Positions 26,307 through 39,749 of a stretch of 64,000 bases of DNA are shown here, one piece after another. The notes below the pieces were generated by a model. That model ran no database searches, was not told the origin of the DNA, and worked only from the letters and a program-made list of their open reading frames with translations. The stretch covers positions 1,205,418 through 1,269,417 of the forward strand of contig NZ_KB899659.1 of the NCBI RefSeq assembly GCF_000378385.1, read 5' to 3'. Each line of letters opens with the position of its first letter. Positions within the stretch are counted from its first letter, which is position 1. This stretch comes from Paenibacillus daejeonensis DSM 15491. GTDB lineage: Bacteria > Bacillota > Bacilli > Paenibacillales > Paenibacillaceae. The position numbers were made by a program, and so were the translations under genes.

Positions 26307-26472
26307 ACGAAAGACCCCCTCTGGTCAGAGAGGGGGTCGTATGGGCAGAGCTCAGACGCCTCTCTCATCTCTCAGAAACCACCGGTCTCCGCAAGAATTA
26401 GCACCGTACATATAAATATGCCGGTTGCCGGGCTTCATCGGGCTAGTCCCTCCGCCTGCTCTTGATAAGAAA
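26307..26472 (-). ncRNA. SAM (S-box) riboswitch of metA-metI
   Basis: Read on the minus strand, the leader has TCTTATCAAGAGCAGGCGGA (from plus 26470), AGGGACTAGCCCGATGAAGC, CCGGCAACCGG, GGTGCTAATTC and CTGAGAGATGAGAG, the conserved order of the SAM-I aptamer. A strong terminator follows: GACCCCCTCT (26313-26322) with AGAGGGGGTC (26329-26338). SAM binding is expected to stop transcription. Confidence 0.96.
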
Positions 26473-32851: not shown

Positions 32852-34246
32852 CTAATTCTCGGCAGGATGCACCATATCCTCTGCCCGGACCACTTGATCA
32901 AACTTCTCTGCACTGATTAGTCCGCTCGCGATTGCCGCCTCTCGAAGCGTTATCCCTTCCAAGTGCGCTTTTTTGGCAATCGTTGCTGCATTCTCATAAC
33001 CGATATGCGGATTAAGGGCAGTGACCAGCATCAGCGACTCGCTGAGCAGCTCTGCAATTCGCGTTTCATTGGCCTCGATACCGCTGGCGCAATGCCGGTC
33101 GAAGGAACGAATGCCATCTGCCAGCAACCGTACCGATTGCAAGAAATTGTAGATGATCACTGGCTTGAATACGTTCAACTCAAAATTGCCCTGACTAGCC
33201 GCAAACCCGATTGCCGCATCGTTCCCCATTACTTGGCACACAATCATCGTAAGGGCTTCACTCTGGGTCGGGTTGACTTTGCCCGGCATAATGGAGCTCC
33301 CCGGTTCATTGGCTGGAATCGTCAGCTCGCCGATGCCGCAGCGGGGGCCACTGGCCAGCCAGCGGACATCGTTGGCAATTTTCATCAGATCGGCTGCCAA
33401 CGCTTTGAGCGCGCCGTGCGCGAAGACCAGCTCGTCATGACTGGTCAGAGCATGGAACTTGTTGTCGGCGCTGCGGAAGTGTCCCCCTGTTCGCTCGCTG
33501 ATCAGTGCTGCCGTGCGTTCACCGAAGCCTGCAGGACTGTTGAGACCTGTTCCGACCGCCGTTCCGCCAATCGCCAGCTCCGCCAATTCTTCCTTGCTGG
33601 TGCGGATCATCCGGGCAGCTTTCTTAAGCATCTGTACCCATCCACTGATTTCTTGACCCAGCGTGAGTGGTGTAGCATCCTGCAAATGCGTGCGTCCAAT
33701 CTTAATAATGGACTGAAAAGCAGCACGCTTGCCTTCAAGTGTTGCAGTCAAGCCCTCAAGAGCTGGCAGCAGTTGTTCTTCTATCGCCAGACTGCCTGCG
33801 ATATGCATGGCGGTCGGAAACGTGTCATTGGAGCTCTGTGATCGATTTACATGGTCATTGGGATGAATTGTACCGGGGCTGCCTGCTGCCTCTAACAGTT
33901 GGTTGGCCCGGCGCGCAATGACCTCATTGAGGTTCATATTGGTTTGCGTGCCGCTCCCGGTCTGCCAGACGGACAAAGGAAACTCATCTTCCCAACGCCC
34001 CTGCAGGATCTCCTCTGCTGCTTCTGCTATGCGATCAGCCAGATCGCCCTCCAACGTCTGGAGCTCTTTATTGGCTTTGGCGGCGCTCTGCTTCAGTATC
34101 GCCATGGCATGAATCAGCTCTCGGGGCATGCGTTCACTGCCAATTTGGAAGTTATGACGGCTTCTTTCGGTCTGCGCTCCCCACAACCGTTCCTGGGGGA
34201 CGCCGATCTCGCCCATCGAATCCTTTTCGATCCTTTGCTTCATCAT
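32852..34246 (-). CDS. fumC: Fumarate hydratase, class II
   Basis: A 464-residue oxygen-stable fumarase that converts fumarate and malate in the TCA cycle. Motifs: [19 protein letters not shown] near the start, [50 protein letters not shown] and the signature [22 protein letters not shown] lies 6 bp before the ATG at 34246. It is divergent from the HxlR regulator gene; both start sites share a 207-bp region. It works together with sdhCAB coded 2 kb away. Confidence 0.97.
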
Positions 34247-34422
34247 AAAACGCCTCCTATCCTGGGTTTCACCTGTCTATTGCTAGTCTAAACCTTTGAT
34301 CTGCTTGCATCAACTTACCCCTACTTAACCGATTCAAACAGCTTTATAAAGGTTAGTATATATATATTAAGCAGTTTATTATGTTTTTACAAATTTGCCT
34401 TACGTTTTGGGGGCCGGCGTGT

Positions 34423-34435
34423 TACAATAGTTGTA
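34423..34435. promoter_or_regulatory. Palindrome over the -10 box of the HxlR gene
   Basis: TACAA-TAG-TTGTA, perfect 5-bp arms, overlapping a TACAAT -10 element (TTACGT at 34400-34405 is a weak -35, spacing 17). Expected for autorepression. Confidence 0.5.
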
Positions 34436-34453
34436 TAAAGTGGGGTGATATCT

Positions 34454-34762
34454 GTGGACTATTCAAAAATGTGTCCGAAGTATGAATCCGCGGCGGAGAT
34501 TCTCTGCAAAAAGTGGACGGGTCTTATCATCCGGGTTCTGCTGGACGGGCCCAAACGGTTTAAAGAAATGAAGGAACAGATCCCTGATATGAGTGACAAA
34601 ATGCTGACGGACCGCATGAAGGAGCTCGAGACCATGGATATCGTGAAGCGGACGGTCTATCCTGAGATGCCGGTCCGCATCGAATATGAATTGACAGACA
34701 AAGGACGCGGTCTGGAGCCCGTCATTCAATCCATTCAAGGCTGGGGAGAACATTGGATGTGA
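34454..34762 (+). CDS. HxlR-family regulator, YodB/CatR-like redox sensor
   Basis: A 102-residue winged-helix protein. The core GPKRFKEMKEQIPDMSDKML then TDRMKELE is close to Bacillus YodB, as is the start YSKMCPKYESA with an N-terminal Cys at the place of the redox-active Cys6 of YodB. There is a second Cys in EILCKKWTGLII. YodB and CatR repress quinone- and diamide-detoxifying genes until the Cys is modified. I chose the GTG at 34454, behind GGGGTG; a GTG at 34445 overlaps this site. The regulated gene may be itself or the divergent fumC. Confidence 0.82.
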   Translation: MDYSKMCPKYESAAEILCKKWTGLIIRVLLDGPKRFKEMKEQIPDMSDKMLTDRMKELETMDIVKRTVYPEMPVRIEYELTDKGRGLEPVIQSIQGWGEHWM

Positions 34763-34823: not shown

Positions 34824-34975
34824 TTTTACTGTGCCCCGCCCATTAGATTTTGCTCAGCAACCCTGTATCCGACCCTGCGCTTGATAGAAACCCGCCGAAT
34901 TGGTTTATAAAGAGGAAGGGTACGGATTGATGAACATCAAGAGTACTGATGCTATCGGGAAGGGACGGATGTTGC

Positions 34976-36112
34976 ATGGCAAACGAGGCAAAAGGACGGC
35001 CCATCGTAGAAGAATTCAATCTTCTCCGGGCGTTCAGTATCTTAGGCGTGCTTATGGTGCATGCCACCTCAGAAGCGATTGCTATGGTGGAGAAGACCTC
35101 CAAGGCCTATCCCGTTTATGTGGCATTGAACACATTTGCCATGTTTTGCGTACCGGCCTTTATATTTTTGACCGGATTTGTGCTGTTCTATAATTATTAC
35201 CGTAAGCCGATCACAGCATCTATGCTGAGAATATTCTATTCCAAACGGCTGATGCAAATACTGATTCCGTATCTTCTAATTTCGATTCTATTCTTTTTTG
35301 TCAGGAAAGCCTTAAATGATGACCTGGCGCCAATAAGTGTGATGATTCCGGACCTGTTAGGCAGGCTTTTGAACGGAACGGCCTATACGCATCTGTATTA
35401 TATTTTTGTATTGATCCAGTTTTATCTGCTGTTCCCCTTGCTCTTATTCGCTTTGCAGCGCTGGCCGCAGCTGGGGCGCTGGGCGATTGCTGTCGGTTTC
35501 GGTGTTCAATGGGCCTTTTATTTCGTCAATAAGGTATGGCTCGATGTCCCATCCAAAGGCAGTGTCTCGCTGGCGTATTTTGCCCCTTTTATGCTGGGGG
35601 TATTTGTCGGTATCTACTATGAGCGTATCAAGTCATGGTTTACTCCGTTGGCCAGCTCAGGCTCTCGCACCTTCAGATTGGCTCAGGGCACACTCTGGTT
35701 AACCTGGATTATTGCTTCAGTAGGGTATATCTGGCTCTGGTATGCGAATCGCACAGAATGGATGATCGTGAATTCCACCTGGTATGAACTGGGCTACAAT
35801 ATATTTACAATGACCTCGATTCTAGTCCTGACCCAGCTGGCTTATAAGCTGTACAAGTCTGGCCCACAGCTGATGATCAGCAGCCTGCAGCGTCTAGCCG
35901 CCTTGTCCTTCGGCATCTATCTGATTCATCCGATGCTATTACTGCTCTACCGAGCGTATCCGCCGAATCAGCTGACGCCAGTGATCTATCATGTCTGGAA
36001 AGCCGGAGGCTTTGTCTTCGCGCTGCTGGGATCAGCGATCCTGCTCGTTACTTTATATCGTCTGCTGCCTCCGGTCTGGCTTTTGTTCGGCCCACGGCCC
36101 AAGATGAAATAG
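34976..36112 (+). CDS. Membrane acyltransferase (acyltransferase 3/OafA-like)
   Basis: A protein of about 378 residues with about ten membrane helices. The family mark is the first helix with FNLLRAFSILGVLMVHATS, containing Arg and the catalytic His; FFVRK and HLYYIFVLIQFYLLFPLL follow. Such enzymes O-acylate polysaccharides, peptidoglycan or small molecules in the membrane. It lacks a C-terminal SGNH domain. Start is uncertain: ATG at 34976 with AAGGGA 11 bp upstream, or ATG at 34949. It stands alone between two terminators. Confidence 0.82.
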   Translation: MANEAKGRPIVEEFNLLRAFSILGVLMVHATSEAIAMVEKTSKAYPVYVALNTFAMFCVPAFIFLTGFVLFYNYYRKPITASMLRIFYSKRLMQILIPYLLISILFFFVRKALNDDLAPISVMIPDLLGRLLNGTAYTHLYYIFVLIQFYLLFPLLLFALQRWPQLGRWAIAVGFGVQWAFYFVNKVWLDVPSKGSVSLAYFAPFMLGVFVGIYYERIKSWFTPLASSGSRTFRLAQGTLWLTWIIASVGYIWLWYANRTEWMIVNSTWYELGYNIFTMTSILVLTQLAYKLYKSGPQLMISSLQRLAALSFGIYLIHPMLLLLYRAYPPNQLTPVIYHVWKAGGFVFALLGSAILLVTLYRLLPPVWLLFGPRPKMK

Positions 36113-36132
36113 CTAATCTACCCTGCGATTCA

Positions 36133-36160
36133 AGCCGGTTGGCCATGTGGCCAACCGGCT
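36133..36160 (+). terminator. Acyltransferase gene terminator
   Basis: AGCCGGTTGGCC and GGCCAACCGGCT form a perfect 12-bp stem around ATGT; TCTTTG follows. Confidence 0.85.
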
Positions 36161-36176
36161 TCTTTGGGCGCGACGA

Positions 36177-36228
36177 TTGACAGATGAACAGACAACGATT
36201 ATATTGTTAATAATGAGAATCATTTTCA
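36177..36228 (+). promoter_or_regulatory. Orphan promoter with a Fur-like box, facing sdhB
   Basis: TTGACA (36177-36182), 17 bp, TATATT (36200-36205). Right after it, 36209-36227 matches the 19-bp Fur consensus in 16 positions and contains the 7-1-7 form TGAGAAT-C-ATTTTCA (36214-36228). The box covers the expected start (about 36212). No gene with a credible start lies downstream on this strand; only a 7-codon frame appears before the sdhB 3' end. Confidence 0.6.
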
Positions 36229-36264
36229 AGTAGATGTTCTGGACATACAAACCCTAACAAAAAA

Positions 36265-36298
36265 GCTCTCTGCAATGTCCTGAGACACCACAGAGAGC
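36265..36298 (-). terminator. sdhCAB terminator
   Basis: GCTCTCTG (36265-36272) pairs with CAGAGAGC (36291-36298), with an inner TGTC/GACA stem. The plus-strand A-run at 36259-36264 gives the minus-strand U-run. Confidence 0.85.
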
Positions 36299-36316
36299 CA
36301 TTGAATATTAAATGAC

Positions 36317-37081
36317 TTACATGCCCAGCCATTTCTTGAACATATGCTTGGTTGTATCTTTATTGAGCGCTGCAATCGACGTTGTCAGCGGAATGCCCTT
36401 CGGACATGCGCGTACACAGTTCTGTGAGTTACCGCAGCCCTCGATGCCGCCGTCGCTCATCAATGTCTCCAGTCGCTCGTCCTTGTTCATCTCCCCTGTC
36501 GGGTGAGCATTGAACAGCCGGACCTGCGAGAGTGCTGCCGGACCGATGAAGCTGGTACGGTCATTGACATTGGGGCAGGCTTCGAGACATACGCCGCAAG
36601 TCATGCACTTGGACAGCTCGTAAGCCCATTGACGCTTGGCTTCGTTCATCCGTGGACCAGGACCCAGATCGTACGTACCGTCGATTGGAATCCACGCCTT
36701 AACCCGCTTGAGCGCGCCGAACATCCGCTCACGGTTGACGATCAGGTCACGAACAATCGGGAAGGTCTTCATGGGTGCCAGCTTGATCGGCTGCTCCAGC
36801 TTATCGATTAGTGCGGTACACGCCTGTCTTGGTTTGCCATTTACGAGCATGGAGCATGCGCCGCAGACTTCCTCCAGACAGTTGGAGTCCCAGCATACCG
36901 GGGAGGTCGACTGGCCACCAGCAGTGGTCGGGTTACGCTGAATCTCCATCAATGCGCTAATGACATTCATATTCGCCCGGTATGGGATTTCGAATGTTTC
37001 CGTGTAAGGCTGGGAATCCGGCTTGTCCTGGCGGGTAATCTCCAGTTTAACGGTCTTGTTGGCTACTGCTGCATCCGCCAT
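36317..37081 (-). CDS. sdhB: Succinate dehydrogenase iron-sulfur subunit
   Basis: A 254-residue subunit of complex II. The 2Fe-2S cysteines lie in CWDSNCLEEVCGACSMLVNG and a later Cys; the 4Fe-4S and 3Fe-4S cysteines lie in CMTCGVCLEACP and CVRACPKGIP with C in GCGNSQNC. It passes electrons from the SdhA flavin to the SdhC haems and menaquinone. It follows sdhA by 2 bp; last gene of sdhCAB. An iron-linked orphan promoter reads toward its 3' end from the other strand. Confidence 0.97.
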   Translation of the reverse strand: MADAAVANKTVKLEITRQDKPDSQPYTETFEIPYRANMNVISALMEIQRNPTTAGGQSTSPVCWDSNCLEEVCGACSMLVNGKPRQACTALIDKLEQPIKLAPMKTFPIVRDLIVNRERMFGALKRVKAWIPIDGTYDLGPGPRMNEAKRQWAYELSKCMTCGVCLEACPNVNDRTSFIGPAALSQVRLFNAHPTGEMNKDERLETLMSDGGIEGCGNSQNCVRACPKGIPLTTSIAALNKDTTKHMFKKWLGM

Positions 37082-37083
37082 CG

Positions 37084-38844
37084 TTATTCTCCTTTCTTCT
37101 TCTTGTCCGTAGTATAGTCGCGTTTGCGCGGCGGAATCAGGGAGACGTCGATATCCTCGTAAGAGATATTAGGACCGTCCTGTGTCCACGACGCAATCGT
37201 TGTCTTCATGAACTTCTCATCGTCCCGCTCCGTGAACTCTGGCTTGTAGTGCGCGCCGCGGCTTTCATCACGGAGCAATGCACCTTTGGTCATAGCCTCG
37301 GAGAGCTCAAGCATGTTCCACAGCTGGCGTGTGAAGGCAACGCCTGCATTGTTCCAGTTGGCTGTATCGTTCATGTTAATCTTGGCGTAACGCTGCTTGA
37401 GCTCCTTGATCTTATTGATCGTCTCCTGCAGCTTGTCGTTGTAGCGGACCACTGTCATATTGTTGGTCATCCACTCGCCAAGCTCCTTGTGAAGCACGTA
37501 CGCATTCTCCGTTCCGTCCATCTTCAGTAGAGAATTGTACTTGTCGGTCTGTTTTTTCTTCTCCCGGTCGAATACCGAAGATGAGATATCCTCCGACGAT
37601 TTGCTGAGACCACGGATGTACTCGACAGCCTTAGGTCCTGCAACCATGCCGCCGTAGATAGCGGATACGAGCGAGTTGGCTCCGAGACGGTTGGCCCCAT
37701 GGTATTGATACTCGCACTCGCCGGCAGCGAACAGGCCAGGAATATTGGTCATCTGATTGTAATCGACCCACATGCCGCCCATCGAGTAGTGGACTGCCGG
37801 GAAGATTTTCATTGGAATCTTGCGCGGGTCGTCACCCATGAATTTCTCATAGATTTCGATAATGCCGCCGAGCTTCACGTCCAGCTCCTTCGGATCCTTG
37901 TGGGAGAGATCCAGGTAGACCATGTTCTCGCCGTTGACACCGAGCTTCATGTCCACGCAGACGCCGAAGATCTCGCGCGTTGCGATATCACGCGGTACCA
38001 GGTTGCCATACGCCGGATATTTCTCCTCAAGGAAGTACCAAGGCTTGCCGTCTTTATACGTCCAGATCCGTCCGCCTTCGCCGCGTGCAGATTCAGACAT
38101 CAGGCGCAGCTTGTCATCGCCTGGGATGGCTGTCGGGTGAATCTGGATAAACTCGCCGTTCGCATAGTTAACGCCTTGCTGATAGACTGCGCTCGCCGCC
38201 GTACCGGTATTAATCACCGAGTTGGTCGACTTGCCGAAGATGATACCAGGACCGCCAGTTGCCAGGATAACCGCATCCGCAGACACAGCATGCACTTCCA
38301 TGGTCCGCAGATCCTGGGCCGATACGCCACGACAGACGCCATCGTCATCAATGACCGCGCCGAGGAATTCCCAATGCTCGTACTTGGTTACCAGACCTGC
38401 CGTTTCCCAGCGGCGGACCTGCTCGTCCAGCGCATACAGCAGCTGTTGTCCGGTTGTTGCCCCTGCAAAAGCAGTCCGGTGATATTTGGTACCGCCAAAC
38501 CGGCGGAAATCAAGCAAGCCTTCTGGTGTCCGGTTGAACATAACGCCCATCCGGTCCATCAGGTGAATAATACCTGGCGCCGCATCGCACATCGCCTTAA
38601 CGGGCGGTTGATTGGCGAGGAAGTCGCCGCCGTACACTGTATCATCGAAGTGCTCCCAAGTGGAGTCACCTTCACCTTTTGTATTGACTGCGCCGTTGAT
38701 GCCGCCTTGCGCGCACACCGAGTGAGAACGCTTTACAGGGACGATCGAGAACAGATCGACATGCATCCCAGCTTCAGCAGCCTTGATGGTCGCCATCAAG
38801 CCGGCCAGGCCGCCGCCAACGACGATTACTTTATTTTTTGCCAT
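37084..38844 (-). CDS. sdhA: Succinate dehydrogenase flavoprotein subunit
   Basis: A 586-residue flavoprotein that oxidises succinate to fumarate. FAD-binding VVGGGLAGLMATIKAAE opens the protein; the FAD-linking His is in KRSHSVCAQGGINGA (about H40); the substrate site includes HPTAIPG, RGEGGRIW and the later ANRLGANSL. The Bacillus-type sequence agrees with a menaquinone-linked enzyme. It lies between sdhC (40 bp upstream) and sdhB (2 bp downstream). Confidence 0.97.
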   Translation of the reverse strand: MAKNKVIVVGGGLAGLMATIKAAEAGMHVDLFSIVPVKRSHSVCAQGGINGAVNTKGEGDSTWEHFDDTVYGGDFLANQPPVKAMCDAAPGIIHLMDRMGVMFNRTPEGLLDFRRFGGTKYHRTAFAGATTGQQLLYALDEQVRRWETAGLVTKYEHWEFLGAVIDDDGVCRGVSAQDLRTMEVHAVSADAVILATGGPGIIFGKSTNSVINTGTAASAVYQQGVNYANGEFIQIHPTAIPGDDKLRLMSESARGEGGRIWTYKDGKPWYFLEEKYPAYGNLVPRDIATREIFGVCVDMKLGVNGENMVYLDLSHKDPKELDVKLGGIIEIYEKFMGDDPRKIPMKIFPAVHYSMGGMWVDYNQMTNIPGLFAAGECEYQYHGANRLGANSLVSAIYGGMVAGPKAVEYIRGLSKSSEDISSSVFDREKKKQTDKYNSLLKMDGTENAYVLHKELGEWMTNNMTVVRYNDKLQETINKIKELKQRYAKINMNDTANWNNAGVAFTRQLWNMLELSEAMTKGALLRDESRGAHYKPEFTERDDEKFMKTTIASWTQDGPNISYEDIDVSLIPPRKRDYTTDKKKKGE

Positions 38845-38884: not shown

Positions 38885-39553
38885 TTATACGTGCCGGATG
38901 ATATCCAGCGCAGCCGCAGCTTCCTTGAACTCATCGCCCCGGAACGCAGCCAGCGACATCATGAACATCGCAGTCACAATGACGAATACGACCATCCATA
39001 CATAGGAGGAAATGCGCTGTGCCCGCGGGCCCACCGTAATGCCCCAGCTCACAAGGAATGCCCACATGCCGTTGGCAAAGTGGAAAACAGCTGCAATGAC
39101 GCCAATAGTGTACAGAACGAAGAACACCGTGTTAACGGAAATCAAATGCATGACACCGCCAAGCTCTTCATGGGATACTTCGCCAATGGCTACCTGGAAA
39201 CGGGTCTGATACACGTGCCAGACGATAAAAATGAACGTAATCACGCCGGTGATGCGCTGCATGGTGAACGCCCAGTTCCGTCCGTACGAGAATTGTCCGG
39301 TGTTGCTGTTGGACTGATAAGCAATGTAGAGCCCGTAGATGCCATGGAACAGCAGCGGCAGGAAGATGAACACAAGCTCGACGAGCCAGACCATCGGCAA
39401 GCTGTTGATCAAACTAACCGCACTGTTGAAGCGTTCAGGCCCTCCTTCAACAGCCGCAAAATTCGTCAGCATGTGTGAAATGATGAACAAACTAAGTGGA
39501 ATCACCCCTAGCAAGGAATGAATCCGGCGAGCGTAATACGAATTTCCCTTCAT
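38885..39553 (-). CDS. sdhC: Succinate dehydrogenase cytochrome b558 subunit
   Basis: A 222-residue membrane anchor with five helices, like Bacillus SdhC, binding two b haems. Conserved His residues appear in RIHSLLGVIPLSLFIISHM, LLFHGIYGLYIAYQ, FIVWHVYQTRF and VFHFANGMWAF. It carries electrons to menaquinone. I start at the ATG at 39553; a longer frame extends upstream without support. GGAAAGGAG lies 12 bp away, a rather long spacing. First gene of sdhCAB. Confidence 0.95.
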   Translation of the reverse strand: MKGNSYYARRIHSLLGVIPLSLFIISHMLTNFAAVEGGPERFNSAVSLINSLPMVWLVELVFIFLPLLFHGIYGLYIAYQSNSNTGQFSYGRNWAFTMQRITGVITFIFIVWHVYQTRFQVAIGEVSHEELGGVMHLISVNTVFFVLYTIGVIAAVFHFANGMWAFLVSWGITVGPRAQRISSYVWMVVFVIVTAMFMMSLAAFRGDEFKEAAAALDIIRHV

Positions 39554-39628
39554 GACATTTGTGTTCTCCTTTCCAGACTGGACGTGCAGATGTTGTACAA
39601 ACTCGTACATTGGTAAACAACGTCTTTC

Positions 39629-39657
39629 ATTGTACTCCTGACCCCATAAAGCGTCAA
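39629..39657 (-). promoter_or_regulatory. sdhCAB promoter
   Basis: Minus strand: TTGACG (plus 39652-39657), 17 bp, TACAAT (plus 39629-39634); leader of about 70 nt. Confidence 0.8.
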
Positions 39658-39749
39658 CAAAAACTCCCACCCCATGACACAACTTAGTCACACTTTCAAT
39701 GGTACTCCTTTTTCGCTTATAATGGAATTGCTTATTTAGTATAATATCT

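Follow-up and report, generated by a model that had tools for sequence, protein, structure and literature searches.

The locus lies within the window, the whole 64,000-nucleotide stretch of DNA from Paenibacillus daejeonensis DSM 15491 that was analysed. It comprises the sdhCAB operon on the minus strand, a gap behind the sdhB stop codon, and an acyltransferase gene on the plus strand that converges on the operon (Table 1). A preliminary description, made from the sequence alone, had named these genes, and Pfam matches confirmed sdhB, sdhA and sdhC. It had also described the gap as empty of open reading frames. The frames of at least 40 aa that touch it, short ones on the minus strand and a single plus-strand frame of 64 aa lying antisense to sdhB, do not look like genes. 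The acyltransferase gene is outside the unit considered here, HxlR or other genes standing at that place in other species. A class II fumarase gene, whose product is an iron-free enzyme, and an HxlR regulator gene adjoin sdh (32852-34762 in the window).

The inverted repeat behind the acyltransferase gene is terminator-like with a weak U-run, and is absent from the terminator-scan list. The hairpin closer to sdhB (36265-36298) had been described as having no U-run on the plus strand, which was correct; on the minus strand it serves as the terminator for sdh.

Table 1. Features at the 3' end of the sdhCAB operon and around it, with window coordinates.
Feature	Position	Strand	Basis and remarks
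Acyltransferase gene, upstream of promoter	34949-36112	+	Pfam Acyl_transf_3
13-bp perfect inverted repeat, 3' of acyltransferase gene and 5' of promoter	36132-36161		Self match; -26.6 kcal/mol
Antisense promoter, -35 hexamer TTGACA	36177-36182	+	Sequence, promoter scan
Antisense promoter, -10 hexamer TATATT	36200-36205	+	Scan
Fur-type operator, over expected start point	36209-36228	+	19-mer 36209-36227; 7-1-7 core TGAGAATCATTTTCA 36214-36228
Antisense RNA, expected 5' part	36212-36316	+	Predicted start to sdhB stop codon, then into sdhB; deduced from promoter spacing
sdhCAB operon intrinsic terminator	36264-36299	-	Terminator scan; hairpin 36299-36264, then TTTTTGTT (T-run)
sdhB, iron-sulfur subunit	36317-37081	-	Pfam Fer2_3, Fer4_8; first gene the antisense RNA would cross
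sdhA, flavoprotein subunit	37084-38844	-	Pfam FAD_binding_2, Succ_DH_flav_C
sdhC, membrane subunit	38885-39691	-	Pfam Sdh_cyt; listed ORF, true start may be internal

The promoter and the Fur-type box behind sdhB

The near-consensus promoter that had been noticed pointing at the 3' end of sdhB was recovered by the promoter scan, which scored TTGACA-17-TATATT on the plus strand (36177-36205, spacer 17 nt) at 11/12. Box scoring likewise recovered the Fur-like box on its expected start point: the 19-mer AATAATGAGAATCATTTTC (36209-36227) matches 16/19 consensus positions, and the overlapping 15-mer TGAGAATCATTTTCA (36214-36228) matches 12/14 positions of the 7-1-7 Fur consensus. Taken singly, neither the promoter nor the box is above chance inside the window, with three promoter-like sites found in 35000-38000 versus 3.1 expected and five box-like sites (three or fewer mismatches) found in the window versus 3.07 expected. 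The combination of the two at the sdhB 3' end, together with its conservation, far exceeds what chance would be predicted to give.

The identity of the box was examined by scoring the window core against consensus strings for the three regulators, which gave 12/14 for Fur versus 10 for PerR and 8 for Zur. A PerR or Zur box in place of a Fur box was rejected on these lower scores. Fur was also the best-scoring consensus in 49/49 relatives, a count that is partly circular because the box was picked by its Fur score. The P. daejeonensis genome contains four FUR-family matches. Pfam testing was carried out on seven of ten candidate proteins encoded behind such boxes in this genome, and the seven were four Peripla_BP_2 proteins, an FhuF-like protein, an ABC ATPase and an AraC-type regulator. 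Among the boxes examined, which are those with retrieved loci and form a subset of 64 genome matches, seven are accompanied by a promoter (at least 10/12); six of these lead into an ORF of at least 287 aa, and the one at sdh does not.

Conservation of the promoter and box among relatives

The 3' flanks of sdhB were collected from 177 loci, 80 of them named, with 54 of 98 family genomes contributing to the family sample. A C-terminal motif oriented 172 loci, and 145 flanks were distinct; the five loci lacking the motif were examined by coordinates and contained no box. A Fur-type box (at least 12/14) was found within 420 nt of the sdhB stop codon in 49 of the 145 distinct flanks.

Retention of promoter and box in relatives with sdhB had been set beforehand as the test of the element, and retention was what we observed. 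In the genus of P. daejeonensis (g1), both stood behind sdhB in 4/7 genomes, and in a second genus (g17) they did so in 43/50 genomes with sdhB (sdhB was matched in 50/51; the 43 comprise 42 listed loci and L100, which is identical to L151). The box was absent from 3/7 own-genus and 7/50 g17 genomes, indicating that the element is not essential. It was also absent from 86/88 other distinct flanks, the exceptions being L181 of genus g11, which carries the element, and L087 (P. roseus), a doubtful carrier with two Fur-like sites in its 3' flank, a weak inward promoter and a better outward one. This arrangement may reflect a neighbouring iron gene on the side away from sdhB, or a changed form of the element. 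In other families of the order, 20/20 flanks (11 oriented by motif and 9 by coordinates, from 20 of 71 genomes) had no box. The distance between box and sdhB among carriers ranged from about 70 to 370 nt, the upper end being represented by the g1 genome G005 (~370 nt). Named carriers include P. sabuli, P. endophyticus, P. harenae, P. luteus, P. prosopidis, P. oryzae and P. sinopodophylli; P. pinihumi is an example of a sister species with no box at this place. L007 and L008 (of which L085 is a duplicate) have a Fur-like box ~690-740 nt behind sdhB, roughly at the expected fumarase/HxlR gap.

A pattern search for box followed by sdhB in 394 family genomes returned 33 matches, of which 29 fell in the two genera; the counts per genus (2/7 g1 and 27/51 g17) are undercounts because of the gap limit. 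The remaining four matches came from genera g13 and g18, at loci without the sdhB motif.

The direction of the promoter was strongly biased. At score thresholds of 9, 10 and 11 of 12, a promoter beside the box pointed into sdhB in 49, 41 and 32 of the 49 box-bearing flanks, versus 6, 1 and 0 pointing away. The pair was found in 0/96 box-less flanks, which is near-definitional (no box within 420 nt), and the direction count is the informative control. We scanned 76 distinct named loci (952,245 bases) for a strict pair (promoter 10/12 plus box 12/14). Of 29 binned hits, 28 lay within 600 nt behind sdhB and pointed inward (21 loci), and one lay there but pointed outward (L087). Elsewhere in these bases the strict pair did not occur on either strand, and dinucleotide-shuffled flanks gave 0/2840. 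The element is very probably a selected Fur-controlled promoter aimed into sdhB.

Exact TTGACA was present in 39 of the 49 box-bearing flanks. We aligned, gap-free, 23 flanks chosen by exact TTGACA-17-TAnnAT and box score, and mean pairwise identity was 1.00 at the -35 hexamer, 0.90 at the -10 hexamer and 0.92 at the box, values inflated by that choice. It fell to 0.30 upstream, 0.51 in the spacer and 0.40 in the 60 nt downstream; for comparison, the third positions of codons at the end of sdhB gave 0.63. An ATATCA after the core, which was not part of the selection, carried 1.1 to 2.0 bits per position. The informative parts of this alignment, as a comparison of sequences, are the drop in identity outside the elements and the unselected ATATCA. 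Independently of this selection, the window, L004 and L006 share one and the same 19-mer box, although their spacers and flanks differ. In a crude test that was not codon-aligned, no extra constraint was seen at third positions of the sdhB 3' end.

The element was found with different neighbours. An HxlR gene lies upstream in 29/48 scored carriers (g1, g17 and L181); it was undetected in the other 19, and promoter and box were still present. In the window itself, the acyltransferase gene stands between HxlR and sdhB. Mapping the trait onto a 145-row sdhB tree requires 11 changes by parsimony versus 41 in shuffles, and at least seven changes are forced by well-supported branches. Carriers occupy several separate groups of this tree, with differing versions of the box. 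Read from this one-gene tree, on which gain and loss are not separable, the element is clustered yet repeatedly gained or lost.

Other sequences were noticed in the same flanks. In L064, L152, L153, L156 and L157, a ACTCAAATTTGAGTA-type sequence (partial in some) lies upstream of the sdhB end and precedes a minus-strand transporter-like gene that replaces HxlR as the neighbour of sdhB. Genus g2 (L022, L026, L029, L030, L031 and L040) has a long, near-identical, imperfect inverted repeat in the sdhB 3' flank; it recurs with variations within the same flank and resembles a REP-like or structured RNA element.

The predicted transcript and its rival explanations

We examined what the promoter would produce. 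An ORF of at least 12 aa preceded by a Shine-Dalgarno sequence occurred near the box in only 1/49 relatives. The 64-aa antisense ORF (36312-36506) was rejected as a product, an ATG being present at that place in only 2/49 (the window and L045). No conserved leader followed the promoter in the 60 nt downstream among the 23 aligned flanks. A plus-strand terminator-like hairpin between box and sdhB was found in 3/49 (L039, L065 and L159), all with weak U-runs, so the RNA might stop early in these three; a scan in fixed 50-nt bins placed a terminator-like hairpin in the last bin before sdhB in 4/49. No consistent plus-strand terminator was detected along the initial 1400 nt that the antisense RNA would cover (at most 2/49 per 50-nt bin). 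A weak plus-strand hairpin ~2.34 kb along (38660-38675 in the window) was present in five box-bearing and two box-less named loci; since it occurs with and without the box, it probably arises from the coding sequence of sdhA.

The promoter faces sdhB on the opposite strand and does not lead into a gene of its own. Downstream of it, the carriers have only sdhB in common, read backwards, which makes cis-antisense transcription the best reading. The absence of a conserved leader, peptide or plus-strand terminator makes a trans-acting small RNA unlikely. Of the Fur-controlled small or antisense RNA aimed at sdhB that had been proposed at the outset, the antisense part is favoured; the trans-acting small-RNA part is disfavoured by an unconserved 5' part and, usually, the lack of a terminator of its own.

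We also searched for FsrA (RF02273). The window gave no covariance-model match at the gathering score. FsrA was likewise found in 0/20 relatives, a set with seven own-genus genomes that takes in the P. daejeonensis genome, and in 0/51 g17 genomes under stricter filters; the B. subtilis control was positive in both searches. An FsrA homologue was rejected on this total of 0/71 genomes searched. The only Rfam match in the window at gathering scores was a SAM riboswitch (26362-26471, minus strand, 80.1 bits).

The explanation that we favour starts from the promoter and box sequence, their orientation, their conservation and the association of this box type with iron genes; from these observations we infer Fur binding, a transcript, its mechanism and the sign of its effect on sdh. 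A sigma-A-type promoter, repressed by Fur and situated just beyond the sdh terminator, would fire into sdhCAB on the opposite strand. With iron present, Fe-Fur would cover the start point and sdh would be freely transcribed. With iron absent, Fur would leave, and RNA polymerase would run rightward from ~36212 into sdhB, where opposing polymerases would collide and/or the antisense RNA would pair with the 3' end of sdh. The level of full-length sdh mRNA would then drop, the distal iron-sulfur gene sdhB being affected first. Iron would be saved in cis, to the same end as by FsrA or RyhB. We put the probability that Fur-controlled cis-antisense transcription lowers sdhCAB in cis under iron limitation, by a wiring unlike that of FsrA, at about two in three. 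A broader proposal stands at even odds: two Paenibacillaceae genera without detectable FsrA would have fixed a purely cis, sequence-independent switch, in which an antisense promoter under Fur repression, placed immediately past the sdh terminator, shuts down the whole of sdhCAB through colliding polymerases. Judging from the sdhB tree, gain or loss of such a switch may have occurred on several occasions.

A trans-acting, Fur-controlled sRNA of the FsrA or RyhB kind, lying beside sdh by accident, would fit a Fur-type promoter that leads into no obvious gene and the weak plus-strand terminator before sdhB in 3/49 carriers, and a substitute for FsrA is plausible given that FsrA was undetected in 71/71 genomes. 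Such an RNA would, however, require neither this place nor this orientation. Its 5' part would be near-random between species (mean identity 0.40 in 23 flanks), its promoter lies at a variable distance from sdhB (about 70 to 370 nt) and remains there where the neighbour is not HxlR, and the window hairpin has no plus-strand U-run. We consider this explanation unlikely. It is more doubtful still that transcription from the antisense promoter, acting through DNA topology or protection of the 3' end, stimulates sdh or fine-tunes it in place of repressing it. One antisense promoter at isc-suf of Rhodobacter is described as raising expression (PMC6956336), but more of an iron-rich enzyme during iron starvation would contradict the known Fur logic, in which Fur-regulated sRNAs lower SDH (PMC11257911).

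Two further explanations have very little probability. Beyond the sdh terminator, the Fur site could serve as an insulator or be a roadblock formed by bound protein, with the promoter being incidental; the box does stand directly behind the terminator in many aligned species, but a roadblock needs no promoter, and the promoter is directed (41/49 inward versus 1/49 outward at 10/12). Alternatively, the promoter could be a relic of a lost iron gene or could supply the 5' leader of a distant plus-strand gene (LysR-type, 39810), in keeping with the lack of a plus-strand gene directly behind it in the window. Against a relic, the elements are kept while the flanks drift to near-random and are present in several sdhB-tree groups; a leader would need a run of ~3.6 kb to reach the LysR gene. 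Repression of sdhCAB by Fur-controlled antisense transcription in cis is the reading that we favour.

Relation to known iron-sparing systems

Sparing iron in the TCA cycle is a textbook job of trans-acting sRNAs. Succinate dehydrogenase is described as often being lowered by sRNAs under Fur control (PMC11257911), among them FsrA, which in B. subtilis targets sdhCAB (PMC8464778, PMC11257911) and is an 84-nt trans sRNA thought to base-pair with target mRNAs (PMC8464778). The arrangement described here resembles FsrA in its predicted Fur-repressed RNA output at sdhCAB of a Gram-positive and in its iron-sparing logic; it differs in that the output would come from a cis-antisense promoter at the operon 3' end, whereas FsrA is a trans sRNA. 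IsrR of Staphylococcus aureus and RyhB of E. coli are further Fur-controlled RNAs reported to target SDH (PMC11257911). NrrF of Neisseria is described likewise, and all three differ from the present element in being trans-acting sRNAs. None of them is known to be encoded opposite sdh.

Antisense control has been described elsewhere with other signals or targets. In B. subtilis, the antisense RNAs of SR7/rpsD and S1290/opuB lower or delay their targets by transcriptional interference (PMC8464778); they respond to salt shock and several stresses, not to Fur or iron, and their targets are unrelated. Collision of transcription is argued to be frequent (PMC10349824). The isc-suf locus of Rhodobacter resembles the present one in that antisense promoters under regulation lie inside an operon for iron-sulfur proteins (PMC6956336); it differs in that IscR, Irr and OxyR, not Fur, are the proteins described as binding there, and in being an assembly operon and not one for an iron-using enzyme. 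The isrR/isiA pair of Synechocystis also involves an iron-linked cis-antisense RNA (PMC8635728), but isrR is described as abundant in iron-replete cells and as opposing a stress gene. At sdhB-sucA of E. coli, an antisense-linked termination event is reported, and the portion of the paper that treats this asRNA states no link to Fur (PMC10349824). Among the top-ranked papers of searches in the open-licence literature, none described an antisense promoter under Fur control at sdh, and none described this element in Paenibacillus.

Iron-sparing control of sdh seems to be wired here by cis-antisense transcription, which would need no RNA chaperone, no seed and no evolution of targets. With carriers in dozens of species and absence from close sisters, the element offers a conserved natural system for testing whether antisense promoters at 3' ends serve operon regulation or represent transcriptional noise. 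In many Paenibacillus relatives, a Fur-type promoter that lies past the sdh genes and is aimed back into them probably lowers this iron-rich enzyme under iron scarcity.
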